NCBI RefSeq assembly: GCF_907165195.1 | Contig: NZ_OU015584.1 | Span: 372,001-436,000 of the forward strand | Direction: 5' to 3' | Source: Parvicella tangerina | GTDB lineage: Bacteria; Bacteroidota; Bacteroidia; Flavobacteriales_D; Parvicellaceae | DNA length: 64,000 nt | Shown: in pieces, positions 20,397 to 55,564 of the stretch | How positions within the stretch are numbered: position 1 is the first letter of the stretch | Layout: each line of letters starts with the position of its first letter | Position numbers and translations under genes: made by a program | Notes under the pieces: generated by a model | Told to the model about the DNA's origin: nothing | Database searches by the model: none | The model's input: the letters and a program-made list of their open reading frames with translations, nothing else

Positions 20397-20504
20397 GACT
20401 TATCTATCCCAATAAATTGGGTTGGATTTAGCACCTTCTGTAAAATTACAGGGTTGCTAAGGTTTCATAGGGCCTTTCCCTCCACCTTTCTTGATAAATT
20501 GATT
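20397..20504 (-). promoter_or_regulatory. SAM-I (S-box) riboswitch aptamer
   Basis: Read on the minus strand, the core motifs are present in order. They are P1 5' strand TTATC followed by AAGA, GGTGGAGGGA, GGCCCTATGAAACC, TTAGCAACC, the AAGGTGCTAA block, CCAACCCAATTTATTGGG hairpin (P4) and the closing GATAAG 3' strand of P1. This is an almost consensus SAM-I aptamer, which binds S-adenosylmethionine and turns off the genes behind it. It is followed by a terminator and then OsmC-metZ-metX-rhodanese-thrA. Known S-box RNAs regulate methionine and cysteine genes, consistent with this operon. Confidence 0.95.
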
Positions 20505-45709: not shown

Positions 45710-46960
45710 TTATATTAGTAGTTGCAATAACAGCTCATTTTCATTGAGATAGGTGAATTCATAGCCTCTTGATTTCATGTTTGATATGATACTCTTCAAA
45801 TCATTTGGGTGTTGAACTTCAATGCCTATTTTAATCATTCCTTTTTCTCTATTGTTCTTTTTTAGGTATTCAAAGTGGGTGATATCATCCGTGTCACTCA
45901 GTACTTTATTGATATACTCTTTCAACGCTCCCGCCCTTTGAGGAAATTTAACTAGAAAATAATGTTTGAGTTTTTCATAGAGCATGGCGCGTTCTTTAAT
46001 CTCTTCCATTCGAGTGATATCGTTATTACTTCCTGAGACAATACAAACAACATTTTTGTTCTTGATTTCTTCTTCCAACTGATCCAATGCTGCAAGAGCC
46101 AGGGCCCCTGCTGGCTCGACAACAATTGCATCCTTGTTGTAAAGTTTAAGAATGGTAGAACACACCTTGCCCTCATCAACTGTTAAGACCCTGTTTAAGT
46201 TTTTCTGGCAAAAGTTAAAAGTCAGATTGCCTATCCGCTGCACGGAAGCTCCATCTATAAACTTATCAATTGTATTTAGCGTTACAGGAGCATCATTTTC
46301 CATTGCGGCTTTTAGGGAAGCAGCTCCTTTAGGCTCCACAGCAATGATTTTTGTCATAGGTGAGTATCGCTTGAAATAGTCACTTACTCCTGCTGCTAAA
46401 CCCCCTCCACCTACTGGAAGAAGTAGGTAATCTATTGGGTCTTTAGCCTGATCTAGAATCTCTTTTGCCACAGTAGATTGCCCTTCGATCACCTTGAGGT
46501 CGTCAAATGGGTGAATGAAGATCATGTCATGGTCTTGACAATATTGAATAGCCTTATGTTTTGCATCGTCAAAAGTGTCACCTACAAGTATTACTTCGAT
46601 TTGTGATCCCCCAAACATCTTAACTTGTTCAATCTTTTGTTTAGGGGTAGGTTGTGGCATAAATATTTTACCCTTTGCGTTTAATTTGTTACACGATAAA
46701 GCCACACCTTGAGCGTGATTCCCAGCACTTGCACAAACTACTCCTTGCCTCAATTGGTCACTGCTTAGCGAAAGCATTTTATTATAAGCTCCTCTAATCT
46801 TATAAGACCTTACCGACTGTAAGTCCTCTCGTTTAAGAAATACTTTGCAGGAGTGTTCTTTGCTAATGTTAGCATTAAGTTGCAATGGTGTTTTGAAAAC
46901 AACTTCCTTTAGTTGTTTTGAAGCACGTTGGGTATTTAACTTTGCTGTTATCATGAGCAT
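45710..46960 (-). CDS. ilvA: Threonine dehydratase (threonine ammonia-lyase), biosynthetic
   Basis: A 416-residue PLP enzyme converting threonine to 2-oxobutanoate, the entry to isoleucine synthesis. The PLP lysine is Lys54 in SYKIRGAYN. A Gly-rich phosphate loop (VGGGGLAAG) and NAGNHAQG-type motif (CASAGNHAQGVALS) are present. The C-terminal about 85 residues look like a single ACT-like regulatory domain (FPQRAGALKEYINKVLSDTDDITHFEYL), shorter than the double domain in E. coli IlvA (514 residues). Feedback inhibition by isoleucine is therefore plausible but may differ. It is the last gene of the ilv operon, starting one base after the ilvC stop. Confidence 0.95.
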   Translation of the reverse strand: MLMITAKLNTQRASKQLKEVVFKTPLQLNANISKEHSCKVFLKREDLQSVRSYKIRGAYNKMLSLSSDQLRQGVVCASAGNHAQGVALSCNKLNAKGKIFMPQPTPKQKIEQVKMFGGSQIEVILVGDTFDDAKHKAIQYCQDHDMIFIHPFDDLKVIEGQSTVAKEILDQAKDPIDYLLLPVGGGGLAAGVSDYFKRYSPMTKIIAVEPKGAASLKAAMENDAPVTLNTIDKFIDGASVQRIGNLTFNFCQKNLNRVLTVDEGKVCSTILKLYNKDAIVVEPAGALALAALDQLEEEIKNKNVVCIVSGSNNDITRMEEIKERAMLYEKLKHYFLVKFPQRAGALKEYINKVLSDTDDITHFEYLKKNNREKGMIKIGIEVQHPNDLKSIISNMKSRGYEFTYLNENELLLQLLI

Positions 46961-46961
46961 G

Positions 46962-48428
46962 TTACAATAGTTTATTGATCGTCTTCATGGCGCTTCTAAG
47001 TTTTCTGCCTATTTGTTCGATAGGATGACTTCTTATGGCATAATTGACTTCTATGAGTGTTTTGTTGTCTGTATTTGAAGTCTTCATATTTCGGCCAATT
47101 AGATCATTGGAAGTGTTAAATACAAAGTCCTTCAGCAGCGGTCTGCTTGCATGGTCGAATAAGTAGCAACCATATTCAGCGGTATCAGAAATGATCCGGT
47201 TCATTTCATAAAGTTTCTTCCTAGCAATTGTATTTGCGATCAATGGAAGTTCATGAAGAGATTCATAATAAGCAGACTCTTCTTTTATTCCTGAGTTTAC
47301 CATCACTTCAAAGGCGAGCTCGACTCCTGCTTTTACGAATGCAACCATTAAAGTGCCATGATCAAAGTAAGTTTGCTCTTCTATATACTCTTCGGTTGGT
47401 GGCGTTTGTTCAAAAGTTGTTTCAGCAGTTTGCTCTCTCCAGGTTAGTAAGTCTTTATCGTTATTATTCCAGTCTTTCATCATTGCTGAGGAAAAGCTTC
47501 CGGAAAGGATGTCATCCATGTGTTTTCTAAAGAGTGGCGTCATCATTGCTTTTAGTTCTTCAGAAAGTTCATGTGCTTTTATTTTAGCGGGGTTTGAAAG
47601 ACGATCCATCATGTTCGTAATTCCACCCAACTTTAATGCCTCGGTGATCGTTTCCCAGCCAAGCTGGATAAGTTTAGCGGCATAATTTGGGTTGACGTTT
47701 TCTTCAATCATTTTGTCGAAACACAATATTGAAGCGGTTTGAAGAACTCCGCACAAGATGGTTTGTTCACCCATCAAATCTGATTTTACTTCAGCGATAA
47801 AACTAGAGTGTAAAACACCAGCTTTGTCACCTCCTGTGGCAACAGCATAAGCTTTAGCCCATTCTAAGCCGTGACCCTTCGGATCATTTTCTTCGTGCAC
47901 AGCGATTAAAGTTGGTACACCAAATCCTCTTTTGAACTCCTCTCTTACCTCACTTCCGGGAGATTTGGGCGCCATCATGATTACGGTAATGTCTTCCCGC
48001 ACGTTAAACCCTTCTTCTACGATATTAAATCCATGTGAGTAGGAAAGGGTAGCATGCCTTTTCATGAGTGGCATTATAGCATTCAAAACTGATGTGTGTT
48101 GTTTGTCAGGAGTGAGGTTTATCACAAGGTCTGCAGTGGGGATCATTTCAGAAAAGGTTCCCACCTTGAAATTGTTTTCAACCGCATTCAAATAAGATTG
48201 GGATTTATTCTCGATAGAATCATTTCTTAAGGTGTAGGATACGTCTAATCCGCTATCCCTCATGTTCAGGCCTTGGTTTAGTCCTTGAGCCCCACATCCT
48301 ATGATCACGATTTTTTTTTCCTTCAAAATGTTTACACCATTTTTGAATTCATCTTCAGACATAAATCTGCACATCCCGAGCTGTCCTACTTGAGCTCTAA
48401 ACGGTAATGAGTTAAAGTAATTTTTCAT
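46962..48428 (-). CDS. ilvC: Ketol-acid reductoisomerase (class II, long form)
   Basis: A 488-residue NADPH-dependent enzyme of the common Ile/Val pathway. The N-terminus ([20 protein letters not shown]) and [24 protein letters not shown] closely resemble the long enterobacterial IlvC (about 491 residues) rather than the short class I form (about 330). It converts acetolactate or acetohydroxybutyrate to dihydroxy acids. Two repeated catalytic regions follow. It lies 3 bp behind ilvN, giving tight operon linkage. Confidence 0.96.
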
Positions 48429-48431
48429 TTC

Positions 48432-48968
48432 TTAATTCTTTGATAGCTTTTCTAATTCTTCCACGTAAGATCTTAATGTTTTCATAGGTTTAGTTATTGC
48501 AACTCTTCCGGATCGAACAAATTCTAATACACCAAACGGTTCTAGTTCATCGAAAAGATCTTGTGTCTCTTCTTTGTGCCCTGTTTTTTCCAGTATGGTA
48601 AAATCGTTTTCAACGGAAATGAGCCTGGCATTGTACTTTCTTACGATATATTCAGCCTCTCCTCCGGCTAGTATTTTTTGAGTTGGAACTTTGTAAAGTG
48701 CTATTTCCTGATAAACAATTTCCTCCTCTCTATGGTAAAATGCCTTGATGATTTCTACTTGCTTTTCTAGTTGAAGAACAACTTTTTTTACAAGCTCTTC
48801 ATCTTCGGATATCACGATAGTATATCGATGGATTCCTTCTACTTCGCTTTCGGAAGCAGCTATACTTTCGATATTAATTTTTCTTCTGGTGAAGATTATG
48901 GTCACACGATTAAGTAGACCAACGTTGTCCTCAGTAAAAACAGATATGGTAAATTTCTCTTTGCTCAT
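48432..48968 (-). CDS. ilvN: Acetolactate synthase regulatory (small) subunit
   Basis: A 178-residue ACT-domain regulatory subunit that confers valine feedback control on IlvB. The ATG at 48968 (MSKEKFTISVFTEDNVGLLN) is chosen over one at 48986 that would overlap ilvB by 17 bp. The ACT domain has the NVGLLNRVTIIFTRRKINIES motif, and a C-terminal domain extends to the end. The size matches IlvH/IlvN of 160-190 residues. It directly follows ilvB, whose stop is one base upstream. Confidence 0.95.
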   Translation of the reverse strand: MSKEKFTISVFTEDNVGLLNRVTIIFTRRKINIESIAASESEVEGIHRYTIVISEDEELVKKVVLQLEKQVEIIKAFYHREEEIVYQEIALYKVPTQKILAGGEAEYIVRKYNARLISVENDFTILEKTGHKEETQDLFDELEPFGVLEFVRSGRVAITKPMKTLRSYVEELEKLSKN

Positions 48969-48969
48969 T

Positions 48970-50685
48970 TTAATTTTGTTTTTCAAGTATTATATCGCTT
49001 ACAGAAGCCCCTGTTGGAACCATTGGAAAGACGTTGTTCTCTTTTCCCACTCTGACTTCTAAAAAGTATGAACCATCAAACGTCATCATTTTTTCCACAG
49101 CTTTAGACAGATCTACTCTATCGGTTACAAGAGCGGTTTTAATTCCATAACCTTTTACAATTGTTTGGAAGTCTGGGTTTACCATGGTCGTTGATGCATA
49201 TCTCTTTTCAAAGAACAATTCTTGCCATTGTCTAACCATTCCCAGAAACTCATTGTTTAGCACAAGAATTTTTACCTTAACATCAGACTGAAAGATCACA
49301 CCAAGTTCTTGGATCGTCATTTGGAATCCGCCATCACCAATTACAGCAACAACCTCTCTGTTTGGAACACCTAGTTTAGCCCCTATTGCAGCGGGTAGAC
49401 AGAAGCCCATCGTGCCCAAACCTCCTGAAGTAATCAGGGATTTGGTTTGATTTAATTTAGCATATCTACAGGCCATCATTTGATGTTGACCCACATCGGT
49501 TACTATGATAGCATCTCCTCCGCCAAATTGATTGACCTGATTAAGAACCTCCCCCATAGTTAAAGGGTCAGTATCAGGATGAATTTCACTTTGGATAACT
49601 TTTTCTAACTCTTCTTTTTCAAGTGATTTAAACTCTTCCAGCCAAGTCGAATGATCATTGTTATGAAGTAATTCTATCAAGAGTGTCAACGTCTCTTTGG
49701 CATCTCCTAAAACAGGATAGTCAGCATGAACGTTCTTGCCAATTTCAGCTGGATCTATTTCAAGATGAACAACCTTCGCTTGTTTTGCATAATAAGCCAA
49801 GTTGCCTGTTACGCGATCGTCAAAGCGCATACCCACGGCAATTAGAACATCACATTCATTAGTTAATTTGTTTGGAGCGTAATTGCCATGCATACCGAGC
49901 ATACCAACATTTAACGGATGATCAGTCGGAAGAGCTGCCGCGCCCATGATGGTCCAGCCTGATGGTAGATGTGCTTTTTCAATAAACTGTTTAAACTCCT
50001 TCTCTGCTTCAGATAGAATTACTCCTTGACCGAAAAGTACAAAAGGCCTTTTTGCGCTATTGATGATATTCGCGGCTGCGGCAACTTGTTCGTAATCTAC
50101 TTTTGGTTTCGCAATATAACTACGGACATTTGTTACGGGTTGATAGTCGAATTCAAATGTTTCGAATTGAGCATCTTTAGTGATGTCTACTAATACAGGA
50201 CCTGGTCGACCGCTTTTCGCGATGTAAAACGCTTTCGCTATTGCGAATGGGATTTCCTCCGCCTTAGTAACCTGGAAATTCCATTTGGTAACCGGCATTG
50301 ATATGCCCACTACATCCGTTTCTTGGAATGCATCCGTTCCTAATAGGTGAGAGTGCACTTGTCCAGTTATGCAAACTAAAGAAGTGCTGTCTATCTGAGC
50401 GTCAGCAATTCCTGTTATAAGGTTAGTAGCTCCTGGTCCTGAAGTAGCCAGGCAAACTCCCACTTTACCTGTAGCTCGAGCAAAACCTTGAGCCGCATGA
50501 ATAGCTCCTTGCTCATGTCTGGTGAGGATATGCCTTAACTTATCCTCATAATCATAAAGAGCATCATAAACAGGCATGATAGCACCTCCCGGGTAGCCAA
50601 ACATGAGGTCTACTCCCTCGGCTAGTAAGGACTGTATTACAGCTTCTGCTCCCGTCATCGTTCTATTTTGGTTCAAAGTATCCAT
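48970..50685 (-). CDS. ilvB: Acetolactate synthase catalytic (large) subunit
   Basis: A 571-residue thiamine-diphosphate enzyme forming acetolactate or acetohydroxybutyrate from pyruvate. The catalytic Glu58 (RHEQGAIHAAQG) and the ThDP/Mg motif GDGGFQMTIQEL are present. The length is typical of IlvB/IlvI. The start MDTLNQNRTMTGAEAV is 2 bp after the ilvD stop, so it is operonic. It requires FAD; the partner regulatory subunit is encoded next. Confidence 0.97.
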   Translation of the reverse strand: MDTLNQNRTMTGAEAVIQSLLAEGVDLMFGYPGGAIMPVYDALYDYEDKLRHILTRHEQGAIHAAQGFARATGKVGVCLATSGPGATNLITGIADAQIDSTSLVCITGQVHSHLLGTDAFQETDVVGISMPVTKWNFQVTKAEEIPFAIAKAFYIAKSGRPGPVLVDITKDAQFETFEFDYQPVTNVRSYIAKPKVDYEQVAAAANIINSAKRPFVLFGQGVILSEAEKEFKQFIEKAHLPSGWTIMGAAALPTDHPLNVGMLGMHGNYAPNKLTNECDVLIAVGMRFDDRVTGNLAYYAKQAKVVHLEIDPAEIGKNVHADYPVLGDAKETLTLLIELLHNNDHSTWLEEFKSLEKEELEKVIQSEIHPDTDPLTMGEVLNQVNQFGGGDAIIVTDVGQHQMMACRYAKLNQTKSLITSGGLGTMGFCLPAAIGAKLGVPNREVVAVIGDGGFQMTIQELGVIFQSDVKVKILVLNNEFLGMVRQWQELFFEKRYASTTMVNPDFQTIVKGYGIKTALVTDRVDLSKAVEKMMTFDGSYFLEVRVGKENNVFPMVPTGASVSDIILEKQN

Positions 50686-50687
50686 GG

Positions 50688-52364
50688 TTAAAACTCGTCA
50701 GTTACGCACCCTTGAGATGCAGATGATACGGTTCTGGCGTATTTGTACAAAACACCTCTATTTACTTTAAGCGAAGGCTGTTTCCAGCTTTCCTTTCTTT
50801 CAGTGAGCTCTTCATCACTAACTTCCAAAGTGATTGAATTCTTCTTAGCATCGATTGTGATGAGGTCTCCATCTTTAACTAGTGCTATTGGTCCTCCTAC
50901 CTGTGCTTCAGGGCTTATATGACCCACAACGAATCCATGCGTTCCTCCAGAGAATCTTCCATCAGTGATTAACGCAACATCATTTCCTAGTCCAGCTCCC
51001 ATTATAGCAGCAGTTGGTTTTAACATCTCCGGCATTCCTGGACCTCCCTGAGGCCCTTCATATCGTATCACTACAACATCTCCCTTTTTCACCAGACCTT
51101 CTCGTATTCCATCATTCGCAGCATACTCACCTTCAAACACCTTTGCTGGTCCAGAGAAAGTGAGCCCTTCTTTACCTGTTATTTTGGCAACTGAGCCATC
51201 GGGAGCTAGATTCCCTCGAAGTATTCTTAAGTGCCCAGTTTCCTTCAAAGGATTTTGAACAGGTCTTATTACATCCTGATCATCTAATAGTGAATCTACC
51301 TGCGATAAATTATCTGCAACTGTTCTTCCTGTTATTGTTAAACAATCGCCATGTAGCATTCCATTTTCTAGCATGTATTTCATCACTGCAGGTATTCCTC
51401 CTACTCGATGCACATCTTCCATGAGATACTTGCCACTTGGTTTGAGGTCAGCTAAGAATGGTGTTTCTTCAGAAATTCTTTCGATGTCTTCAAGAGTAAA
51501 TTCTACCTGCGCAGCTTTCGCTATGGCTAGGAAGTGTAATACAGCGTTAGTTGATCCTCCAAGAACGGTGACTACTTTAATCGCGTTTTCTAGCGATTTT
51601 CTTGTAACTATATCACTTGGTTTAATGTCTTTTTCGATTAGTATTTTCATCACTTCACCAGCCATTACTGACTCACTTACTTTCTCTTCGCTAGTAGCTG
51701 GATTGGATGAGTTGTAGGGTAGAGACATCCCAAGAGCTTCGATTGAGGCAGCCATCGTATTCGCTGTATACATTCCTCCACAGGCTCCTGCTCCCGGGCA
51801 TGCTTTTTCTTTTACTGCTTGATAGTCTTCTTCTGATATCTTTCCTGCTACTTTTTCACCCCAGGCTTCAAAGGCTGAGACAATGTTTAACTTTCTTCCT
51901 GCATGACAACCCGAAGCTATTGTACCCCCATATACAAGAACTGAGGGTCTATTCAAACGTAACATTGCCATCAAAGCCCCAGGCATGTTCTTATCACATC
52001 CAACAACTGTCACTAAACCATCATAGCTCATTCCTTGAACTACGGTCTCCATTGAATCGGCTATCACATCTCTTGAAGGCAAAGAGTACCTCATTCCTGG
52101 TGTACCCATAGAGATTCCATCACTTACCCCAATCGTGTTAAATATAAGACCAACCAAATCAACGTTTTGGGTTCCTTTTTTAACGTTTCTCGCGAGTTCG
52201 TTAAGGTGCATGTTACATGGATTTCCTTCAAAACCAGTTGATGCAATTCCAACGAATGGTTTCTTCAAGTCTTCCTTTGTCAGGCCTATGGCGTGCAACA
52301 TAGCTTGTGCCGCTGGTTGTGTTTCGTCCTGAGTAACTCTTTTACTGTATTTATTTAATTCCAT
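50688..52364 (-). CDS. ilvD: Dihydroxyacid dehydratase
   Basis: A 558-residue iron-sulfur enzyme for the third common Ile/Val step. The ATG at 52364 ([16 protein letters not shown]) is chosen over the one at 52379 because it leaves a single base after the ilvE stop. The cluster cysteines lie in [17 protein letters not shown] and [35 protein letters not shown] is the C-terminal IlvD/EDD signature. The length matches IlvD (about 558-570). Confidence 0.96.
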
Positions 52365-52365
52365 T

Positions 52366-53256
52366 TTAAACAAGATCAAATTGTTGATATTCGTTTTGAC
52401 AAACTCTTCGTCTATAAGCTCTTGCTAGTTGGCATCCCATTGTGTCTTCCCACTCTAACTTGAACTTGTGATTGTCTAGGCTATCTATGCCAGCTACCTC
52501 TGCCGCTGTTCCCGTGAAGAATGCTCCATCAGCATTGTAAACCTCTTCTGGTGTAAAGAACTTTTCAACTACTTCATATTCCAGTTTTTCAGCGAGTTCG
52601 AAAATGGTTTGTCTCGTGATTCCTGGAAGTATATTGCCCAGTGGAGCCGTATAAAGAACTTCATCTTTTTCGTAGAAAAAATTGGCTCCTGGACCTTCAG
52701 CAACGTTTTCATTCATATCCAATAAAAGAGCTTCGTCAAATCCTTTTTGTTTGGCTTCAGTTGTTGCTAATATTGAGTTGGTATAGTGGCCAACCACTTT
52801 GGCTTCTACATGACAAGATTTGGGGTTAGGCCTTTGATAAGACGATGTCATTACTTTAAGTAGATCATCTCCAAGATACTTGCCCCATTCCCAGGTACAT
52901 AAAAAAACATTTACTTCCTCTGTTGGCTGTAAGCTCATGTTTTCACCTAGATAAACAAGTGGTCTCAAATAAGCGTTCGTCAGATTGTTGCGTTCTAGTA
53001 GCTCGTAAGAGAGCTGTGTCAATTCTTCAACGGATAAATCTAGTTTGATATGCATTTTCTCTGCAGAATACTTCAAACGTTCAAAGTGTTCTTTGGCCTT
53101 GAAAATTCTTACTCCATCTTCAGTTGCATAGGATCTGATGCCTTCAAATACCCCTGAGCCGTAGTGTAGCGTTTGGGAATACAAATTTGTCTGTGCTTCT
53201 TTTACAGGTAGCCAGTACCCATTCAAATAAACTGTTGATTTTTCGTTGTAATACAT
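52366..53256 (-). CDS. ilvE: Branched-chain amino acid aminotransferase (class IV)
   Basis: A 296-residue fold-type IV PLP aminotransferase giving the last step to Ile, Val and Leu. Lys153 ([12 protein letters not shown]) is the PLP lysine, and the segment [13 protein letters not shown] with Glu188 is also diagnostic. The start is [13 protein letters not shown]. It is the first structural gene of the ilv operon, directly behind the attenuator. There is a 1-base gap to ilvD. Confidence 0.93.
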
Positions 53257-53274: not shown

Positions 53275-53306
53275 AAAAAAAAAGTCCTCTCAACCGAGAG
53301 GACTTT
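53275..53306 (-). terminator. Attenuator terminator of the ilv operon
   Basis: On the minus strand a perfect 11-bp stem (AAAGTCCTCTC with GAGAGGACTTT) with loop GGTT is followed by a run of T residues, directly upstream of ilvE. It is a strong intrinsic terminator located between a leader peptide and the operon, that is, an attenuator. Confidence 0.92.
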
Positions 53307-53348
53307 AAAGGCGCTATCAATACCTTTAAGCCTCTCATTCCAGAGGGT
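53296..53348 (-). promoter_or_regulatory. Alternative-pairing region (antiterminator) of the ilv leader
   Basis: On the minus strand, segment 1 (ACCCTCTGG, 53340-53348) can pair with the AGAGG at the start of segment 2. Segment 2 (GAGAGGCTTAAAGG, 53323-53336) can pair instead with segment 3 (CCTTTAAAGTCCTCTC, 53296-53311), which is the 5' arm of the terminator. Pairing 2:3 would prevent the terminator 3:4. The stop codon of the leader peptide lies at the start of segment 2, so a ribosome reaching it covers segment 2 and lets the terminator form. Confidence 0.85.
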
Positions 53349-53388
53349 TAATTGAAACAATAATTGCTATGTTTAAAGTGTTTCTCAT
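53335..53388 (-). CDS. ilv operon leader peptide (attenuator peptide)
   Basis: A 17-residue open frame on the minus strand, MRNTLNIAIIVSINPLE, then TGA. Seven of 17 residues are Leu, Ile or Val (Leu5, Ile7, Ile9, Ile10, Val11, Ile13, Leu16), codons TTA, ATA, ATT, ATT, GTT, ATT, CTG. Its stop codon overlaps the segment that pairs with the terminator arm. This is the classic design of an amino-acid-starvation sensing leader peptide: ribosomes stalling at Ile/Val/Leu codons allow the antiterminator to form. It is too short for ordinary gene prediction. Confidence 0.85.
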   Translation of the reverse strand: MRNTLNIAIIVSINPLE

Positions 53389-53399
53389 TTTTCTTTGAG

Positions 53400-53407
53400 C
53401 AAAGATG
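53400..53407 (-). promoter_or_regulatory. Possible -7 element of the ilv leader transcript
   Basis: The minus strand reads CATCTTTG, 7 of 8 positions of TAnnTTTG. If used, the transcript would begin only a few bases before the leader ATG. A clear -33 TTG at the right distance is missing, so the promoter position is uncertain. Confidence 0.3.
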
Positions 53408-53512
53408 AGATAGAATAGGTTACCTTAAAATTACAATTATTGAAAAAATAAAAAGTCTGATTTTAATGAGTTATTTGAATCACAGTATTATTAAAATCAG
53501 TAAATTTTCAGA

Positions 53513-55564
53513 ATGAAACTCCGTTGGACGTTATTATTCTTATTGGGTTTTAGCAATGTCTTCATTGCTCAGCATGCAACAAGTAACAAGCTTGACTCGA
53601 TTTATGGCCAAGTTGAGGAAGGTCTTGACGATAAGCAGTTGGTCACTACTTTGCTCGGTCATGTAGTAAACTTAAGAAGTTCTGATGACCTAACTTCAGC
53701 TAAAGTAATTCTGGACTCGGTACATAATATTGCTAAGACGAATAAAAGTCTACAATTTGAATATGCTAAATCTTTAATGGATGCAGCGATCATTGCCAAG
53801 CTGGAAGGAAACGAAGAGTCAATGGTAAATAATTATCAGAGTGCCATCGATGCTTACCAAAGCTACAAGGGTTATGCACCTGACAGCATGATTCCCAAAA
53901 TTGAAATTCAAATTGCAAAGTGTAATAATAATGTAGCTCAAGTGTTTTTAGCTAAGGAGGATTATGGAATTGCCTTGGATATTTACAAAGGTATTGTAGA
54001 GTCTATCCGCGATTTTGGAGATACTGTTTTTCTCTCTATTTGTTATTACAATATCGCTGAAACATTTAATGAAATGGAAAACTATGATTCAGCATTTCAT
54101 TACATGATGATTAGCAAAAAACTTGAGCAACAACTGAATTCGGATGAAGGGCTTGCTTATGCACATGATGGATTAGCTCGAATTTATAATAAAGAAGCTA
54201 ATTACTTAAAGGCGCTTCAGCATTTGGACTCTGCCCAAGAGTTTTGCGAGAAAATAGGGGATGAGTTTTTTAGGCTCAACCTAATTTCACAGCGATCGGA
54301 AATATTGGAAGAAATAGGAGGTCTTTCAGAAGCTATAGAGATCTTAGAGTTAGGTTTAATTAAAGCTAGTCAGATTGGTTACAAAGATTTTGAGGTAAGA
54401 ACAGCTAAGAAGCTTAGTGAACTTTATGAAAAGGTTGAAAACTATGAAAAAGCATTCTTCTACCAGGGAAAATATAAGGATTACCTAATCCAGGCGAATA
54501 ATGAGGAAACAAATAAGATAGTTGAGGAGTTTAAGGTCCAATATGAGTCGGAACAAAAGGATAAGGAAATTGAGCAGTTAGCCCTGCAGAATAAACTAAA
54601 AGAGGAGGCCAATAAGAACTTACTTGAAAAGCGTAAAGCTGAGGCGAGTAAGACCAGGATTGTATATTGGTCTCTTGGTGGCGGGATACTGATGTTGTTA
54701 ATTATAGGGTTGTTGTTATTTATTGATTCAAGAAGAAGAAAGAGAATAAACCAATTTCTAAAAACTAACAATGAAAGTCTTGCTAGGAAAAATGAGCAGA
54801 TTTTGCATCAATCAAAGTTGATAGGTGACAGCATTAATTATGCTCAAAACATTCAACGAGCTATTCTGCCTACAACGGTTGAGATGAATGATAGTTTTGA
54901 AGATCATTTTGTTTTCTTTCTTCCAAAAGATGTGGTTAGTGGTGATTTTTATTGGATGCATAAGATTCCAGACTCGAATAAAGTCTTATTTAGTGTAGCT
55001 GATTGTACGGGGCATGGAGTGCCTGGAGCATTCATGTCTATTGTTGGTCACGCTTTGTTAGAAAAGATCGCAAAGCAATTAAATATTTACTCGCCATCCA
55101 AAATTTTGAACCGGCTTGCTTTTGAATTACAAAACACCTTAAAGAAGGGGGAAGGGGCTGTAGATGATGGAATGGATATCGCTCTTGTTATGGTTGACTA
55201 TGATTCTAAAACAGTACATTTCGCTGGGGCAAGAAATCCTTTAGTAATTATTTCGGATAATGAACTAACCCTGCTCAAAGGAGATCGTATTGACCTTGGT
55301 AAACAATCAGAAGTTGATTTTCAAGAAGCAACTATCAACTTTAATAAAGGGGACAAATTATATATGTTCACAGATGGTTTCCCGGATCAAAAGGGAGGAG
55401 AGCATGGTAAGAAGTATTATGCAATTAAGTTGCGACATTTCTTTCAGCAAGTATCCAACGAGAGTATGTCTAACCAGATGGCGCTTCTTCGCTCTGAGTT
55501 TGAGTGTTGGAAGGGGACTAAAGAACAGGTTGATGATGTACTAATAGTAGGTGTTCGACTCTAA
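53513..55564 (+). CDS. TPR-containing SpoIIE-type (PP2C) phosphatase
   Basis: A 683-residue protein: signal peptide (1-19), TPR repeats in the presumed periplasm (about 60-340), a coiled coil, one transmembrane helix (about 385-405; IVYWSLGGGILMLLIIGLLL) and a C-terminal SpoIIE/PP2C domain. That domain carries SGDFYW, DCTGHGVPGAF, FTDGFPDQ and VDDVL landmarks. It has the same layout as the 23778-25718 protein and shares the DSINYA(K/Q)xIQ linker, so the two are paralogues. The signal it senses and the target are unknown. It is divergent from the ilv operon across 256 bp that contain the ilv leader. Confidence 0.92.
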   Translation: MKLRWTLLFLLGFSNVFIAQHATSNKLDSIYGQVEEGLDDKQLVTTLLGHVVNLRSSDDLTSAKVILDSVHNIAKTNKSLQFEYAKSLMDAAIIAKLEGNEESMVNNYQSAIDAYQSYKGYAPDSMIPKIEIQIAKCNNNVAQVFLAKEDYGIALDIYKGIVESIRDFGDTVFLSICYYNIAETFNEMENYDSAFHYMMISKKLEQQLNSDEGLAYAHDGLARIYNKEANYLKALQHLDSAQEFCEKIGDEFFRLNLISQRSEILEEIGGLSEAIEILELGLIKASQIGYKDFEVRTAKKLSELYEKVENYEKAFFYQGKYKDYLIQANNEETNKIVEEFKVQYESEQKDKEIEQLALQNKLKEEANKNLLEKRKAEASKTRIVYWSLGGGILMLLIIGLLLFIDSRRRKRINQFLKTNNESLARKNEQILHQSKLIGDSINYAQNIQRAILPTTVEMNDSFEDHFVFFLPKDVVSGDFYWMHKIPDSNKVLFSVADCTGHGVPGAFMSIVGHALLEKIAKQLNIYSPSKILNRLAFELQNTLKKGEGAVDDGMDIALVMVDYDSKTVHFAGARNPLVIISDNELTLLKGDRIDLGKQSEVDFQEATINFNKGDKLYMFTDGFPDQKGGEHGKKYYAIKLRHFFQQVSNESMSNQMALLRSEFECWKGTKEQVDDVLIVGVRL

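Follow-up and report, generated by a model that had tools for sequence, protein, structure and literature searches.

The closest described systems are the ilv, leu, his and trp attenuators of the enterobacteria E. coli and Salmonella. In them, as in the locus described here, a leader peptide rich in the end product precedes the genes of the corresponding pathway, the antiterminator and the terminator exclude each other, and the stop codon adjoins the antiterminator arm. Candidate attenuators in Bacteroidetes/Chlorobi were reportedly mentioned by Vitreschak and colleagues (2004). A survey from 2010 stated that leader-peptide systems were, to its knowledge, unshown outside Proteobacteria and Actinobacteria (PMC2965389). 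Leader peptides with predicted control are also described before ilv genes, as here, in two reports on actinobacterial and Corynebacterium ilvB (PMC1262725, PMC10272879). From transcriptome data of Flavobacterium psychrophilum, a member of the same phylum, leader-peptide attenuation before amino-acid operons has been reported; there too the 5´ regions are structured and contain short leader peptides, and hisG is named among the conserved elements (PMC9723704). An earlier note on the present DNA had regarded such an attenuator as not described for this operon in a Bacteroidota setting, which is too strong given this report; the main text of that report leaves ilv unnamed and, unlike the present analysis, gives no anatomy or phylum-wide comparison.

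Here we analyze a window of 64,000 nt from Parvicella tangerina, in which a minus-strand operon, ilvE-D-B-N-C-A, makes the amino acids that its leader is proposed to sense. The genes, all assigned by NCBIfam matches, are as follows.

52366 to 53256, minus strand: ilvE, branched-chain aminotransferase, first gene of the operon
50688 to 52364, minus strand: ilvD, dihydroxy-acid dehydratase (likely ATG start)
48970 to 50685, minus strand: ilvB, acetolactate synthase large subunit
48432 to 48986, minus strand: ilvN, acetolactate synthase small subunit
46962 to 48428, minus strand: ilvC, ketol-acid reductoisomerase
45710 to 46960, minus strand: ilvA, threonine ammonia-lyase

We consider it very probable, at about 0.93, that a classical ribosome-mediated transcription attenuator controls ilvEDBNCA. 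This attenuator, together with a leader in which 7 of 17 residues are Ile, Val or Leu, very probably means that the Ile/Val genes are turned on only when those amino acids are scarce. Its parts lie within the 256 nt that separate ilvE (53256, minus strand) from a divergent gene starting at 53513 on the plus strand.

53335 to 53388, minus strand: leader peptide gene MRNTLNIAIIVSINPLE, read from ATG at 53388 through TGA, 17 codons, stop UGA at 53337 to 53335
53340 to 53348, minus strand: segment 1 ACCCTCTGG, core CCUCU at 53346 to 53342, able to pair with segment 2 (or 4)
53323 to 53336, minus strand: segment 2 GAGAGGCTTAAAGG, 5´ arm of the antiterminator
53296 to 53311, minus strand: segment 3 CCTTTAAAGTCCTCTC, common arm (3´ arm of the antiterminator and 5´ arm of the terminator)
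53281 to 53291, minus strand: segment 4 GAGAGGACTTT, can pair with segment 3
53281 to 53306, minus strand: intrinsic terminator hairpin 3:4, 11 bp, loop GGUU
53275 to 53283, minus strand: terminator U-tract, read from the sequence

The frame, segments and coordinates proposed in the earlier note proved right to the base when the letters were rechecked. An intrinsic terminator, the hairpin and U-tract listed above, stands before the first structural gene, with a predicted energy of -16.7 kcal/mol at 37 C, compared with -14.7 kcal/mol for 2:3 and -6.7 kcal/mol for 1:2. Segment 2 starts at the second base of the leader UGA, and its helix with segment 3 is in two parts, GAGAGG:CCUCUC and UUAAAGG:CCUUUAA. 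The fold of the 114-nt leader has a z-score of -3.8, with none of 200 shuffles equally stable. When both strands of the 64 kb were scanned for a short frame with at least five I/L/V in eight residues and a stop 15-40 nt 5´ of a terminator, the arrangement was found at this place only; thrA, also in the window, showed no leader unit in a scan for ILV and single-residue runs. Elsewhere in the window, a SAM riboswitch (RF00162, 96 bits) lies at 20397 to 20500 on the minus strand.

The arrangement is widespread among relatives. Close ilvE homologues from 60 related genomes and from a named genome collection gave 90 upstream regions covering Flavobacteriales, Cytophagales and Saprospirales, with Flavobacterium, Bizionia, Roseivirga, Fulvivirga, Reichenbachiella and Aureispira among the organisms named in the records. 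An automatic scan in which the stop could lie as much as 110 nt 5´ of the hairpin detected a terminator together with an I/L/V-rich short frame in 84 of the 90. Among the misses, sequence is lacking for L048 and L100, L078 seemingly lies inside a longer operon, and L040, L059 and L082 have a weaker leader by eye. Under the strict 15-40 nt rule, an I/V-rich frame and a terminator were found in 75 of 82 full-length ilvE upstream regions, compared with 0/246 dinucleotide shuffles and 1/1542 natural control windows taken from other parts of these contigs, and amino-acid letter sets other than I/L/V gave at most 7 matches. The earlier note had held that absence of the short frame from relatives would count against an attenuator; the frame is present in relatives, and its Ile/Val codons are kept. 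A class-wide sample contained a unit in 20 of 37 regions before ilvD, but several of these look spurious by eye (for example L198, L203, L207, L223 and L224), and we take this sample only as evidence that the device extends beyond the order. Three genomes of the same genus (G001-G003), two of them incomplete, have no close ilvE homologue (best E about 1e-18), and G002 also lacks an ilvD match.

Comparison also establishes the spacing. In 92 distinct units, the distance from stop to terminator is 16-37 nt, mostly 20-28; the spacing can be summarized as mostly 20-30 nt with a median of 25. In the 103 units of a looser scan, the antiterminator arm has its median start on the first base of the stop codon. 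UGA is the commonest leader stop (59 of 92 units), which fits the frequent UGAGA:UCUCA pairing. The frequency of Ile, Val and Leu is highest 4-14 codons before the stop, reaching 84% at -8, and is only 14-25% in the last three leader codons; thus, the stop region would be left free while a ribosome stalls on the regulatory codons. Across the leaders, 30% of residues are Ile, 10% Val and 6% Leu. The low Leu content fits the absence of evident leucine synthesis, since leuA is not evident in the genome, where the sole HMGL-like match is weak. Of the sensing of Ile, Val and Leu proposed earlier, the Ile and Val parts are therefore borne out, and the Leu part is not.

Codon choice points to translation of the leaders. 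GTC accounts for 52% of Val codons in leaders (92/177) but for 6.6% in ilvE (89/1345), an 8-fold difference; it occurs in the leaders of 47 of the 75 relatives' loci, where it usually precedes ATT. In distinct leaders GTC is found 95 times in frame and 5 times out of frame, split 3 and 2 between the two remaining frames. Being almost confined to one frame, GTC argues that the leader frames are read as codons, and from this pattern they are very probably translated. The Val codon of the window's own leader is GTT, so the GTC evidence comes from relatives. Given that UAC is the only tRNA-Val in the set of tRNA genes detected in this genome, GUC may be a slow codon.

The alternative pairings 2:3 and 3:4 put forward in the earlier note covary among relatives. 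The antiterminator pairing score is 15.0, versus 11.4 ± 0.2 with segment 2 shuffled, and a unit's own segment 2/3 partners outscore permuted partners with z = 11.8, a statistic that ignores kinship among units. At least eight hairpin keys (CTTCTC, CCATCC, CCTGTATC, CCGCCCCG and others) each come with a matching segment 2, in counts that also ignore kinship; this is compensatory change on a large scale. Together with the frames and Ile/Val codons of the relatives, this covariation supports the proposal of a ribosome-mediated ilv attenuator that would sense branched-chain aminoacyl-tRNA. The 1:2 pairing is another matter. It exists in the window, as claimed, but is not a feature of the family, where its mean score (11.26) is at the chance level obtained with segment 1 shuffled (11.10 ± 0.22). 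The four-segment enteric layout, of which the protector hairpin is a part although attenuators in general need not have one, is thus not supported by these sequences for the family as a whole. With 5 bp, the window's 1:2 helix ranks in the top 8 of the 92 units and may therefore have a role in this species.

We propose the following mechanism, which assumes close transcription-translation coupling in Bacteroidota. Translation of the leader would begin near the 5´ end of the transcript. With charged Ile- and Val-tRNA plentiful, the ribosome would reach the UGA stop and cover segment 2, because the pairing of this segment begins within the stop codon; segments 3 and 4 would then form the terminator, and transcription would end before ilvE. 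When these tRNAs are short, the ribosome would stall about 4-14 codons upstream of the stop and leave segment 2 exposed. Segment 2 could then pair with segment 3 while segment 4 has yet to be transcribed, and the polymerase would read on into the operon. Translation itself, the start site, the efficiency of termination and the response to starvation are the parts of this model that we infer.

Folding is consistent with such a switch when treated kinetically. In a model of the RNA up to but excluding segment 4, with the ribosome position varied, the average probability that segment 3 is paired upstream was 0.73 for a ribosome placed 8-9 codons ahead of the stop and dropped to 0.25 for one standing on the stop itself, compared with about 0.43 and 0.34 for shuffled spacers. 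With no ribosome, the model sequesters 63% of segment 3, so untranslated RNA is predicted to favor read-through, unlike in enteric operons, which show superattenuation. Equilibrium folding was dropped as a test of switching, since the terminators of most relatives are so stable that they win whatever the position of the ribosome; with segment 4 included, 11 of 92 units, among them that of the window, switch with ribosome position. The mechanism would therefore have to be kinetic.

Upstream of the leader, two further features bear on how the operon may be controlled.

53400 to 53407, minus strand: candidate -7 promoter element CATCTTTG, one mismatch to the Bacteroidota TAnnTTTG, 11 nt before the leader ATG
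53443 to 53461, minus strand: element ATCAGACTTTTTATTTTTT, upstream of the promoter

A perfect TAnnTTTG is absent before the window's leader; it is found 9-10 nt before the leader ATG at L004, L005 and L012, and within 60 nt at 30 of 81 loci, compared with an average of 5.15 in shuffles (70-nt stretch). The second element raises the possibility that the attenuator is real but minor, fine-tuning an operon that is dominated by initiation control through a protein at ATCAGACTTTTTATTTTTT. Similar elements stand upstream of the promoter before ilvE in several family relatives, and the element occurs once in this genome. However, it is confined to near relatives while the attenuator is found across the phylum, and no regulator is known for it; we regard dominance of initiation control as unlikely.

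Other readings dispense with the attenuator. The hairpin could be an ordinary constitutive terminator or the end of a small RNA, with a frame that arose by chance or encodes an unrelated hydrophobic protein, such as a type I toxin-like peptide, given that Ile/Val-rich short peptides resemble small membrane proteins and that Ile is easily encoded by AT-rich DNA. Against this, the upstream gene (53513 to 55564, plus strand) is divergent, so there would be no upstream transcript to end at the hairpin, and the arrangement almost never appears in shuffles or natural control windows. Moreover, the leader peptides differ in sequence from locus to locus yet retain the codon type, the spacing and their place before ilvE, and His- and Trp-rich versions precede hisG and trpE, which together make this reading highly improbable. 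Riboswitches and T-boxes likewise use a terminator and an antiterminator before ilv genes, and direct binding of an amino acid or uncharged tRNA would render the short frame incidental. Yet no Rfam family reached its gathering score in the window leader or in the attenuators of 14 related loci, the conserved part consists of the stop-proximal helices only, and the sequences of these helices differ widely while the frame and its codons are kept. We give this explanation almost no credence. Sub-threshold Rfam matches to OmrA-B and, on both strands, Phe_leader, obtained with permissive thresholds, were treated as chance. A SAM-II riboswitch was seen in one related locus (L079, 1617 to 1675, minus strand).

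A ribosome-mediated attenuator also appears to precede other biosynthetic genes of this genome, whose other operons were checked one by one. Outside the window, hisG is preceded by the His-rich leader MQTPFTHHHCHFCSQAK (L143), with a terminator 29 nt after the stop, and trpE by the Trp-rich leader MNARTQNTNWWWLTKSSDGFSW (L145), with a terminator 27 nt after the stop; the best NCBIfam model for TrpE is trpE_most, with a score below the cut-off. Before ilvE, the window has a single attenuator unit, and about 15 of 90 ilvE loci have tandem attenuators. Two strict units were found at 16 loci, of which L096 has a second unit that looks doubtful, and a second unit is also visible by eye at L007, L037 and L079. 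Examples include Bizionia (L066), Reichenbachiella faecimaris (L104), Roseivirga (L090 and L095), Aureispira (L085) and a member of the Cyclobacteriaceae (L101), with further tandem loci at L093, L039, L054 and L103. The paired hairpins usually differ in key, and both units are Ile/Val-rich. We lean towards the view that Bacteroidota share phylum-wide compact attenuators, with no conserved protector hairpin, with the stop inside the antiterminator, with GUC-biased Val codons, and often with serial tandem Ile/Val units that would steepen the response.

In the mgtCBR leader of Salmonella, tandem frames answer different signals (ATP, proline). That leader has two short frames, as do the tandem relatives described here (PMC3641672), but both units of the Bacteroidota pair are Ile/Val-rich. 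Differences from the enterobacterial attenuators are several: the Bacteroidota family has no conserved 1:2 protector, its leaders are rich in Ile and Val with no marked Leu, a candidate promoter lies very near the leader start codon, the stretch before the window's leader shows no Shine-Dalgarno sequence, and there is no sequence relationship. Bacteroidota make little use of Shine-Dalgarno sequences. The Bacteroid-trp motif marks trp leaders. This cis-regulatory RNA of Bacteroidetes takes its name from trp (RF01692; PMC2864571) and has no match to the window's ilv leader. The actinobacterial and Corynebacterium ilvB leaders differ in phylum, genes and leader. No description of an ilv attenuator, or of its tandem form, in Bacteroidota was found in the literature, a search whose open-access scope makes it weak evidence. 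We file the locus as a known mechanism with a putative new phylum-wide ilv case in Bacteroidota. The same attenuation logic would thus operate widely in the phylum at ilv and, in this genome, also ahead of his and trp. The way in which codon choice tunes an attenuator's sensitivity may now be approached through the tandem units and the preference for GUC in frame, and the ilv attenuator would provide a direct test of whether ribosomes closely trail RNA polymerase in Bacteroidota.
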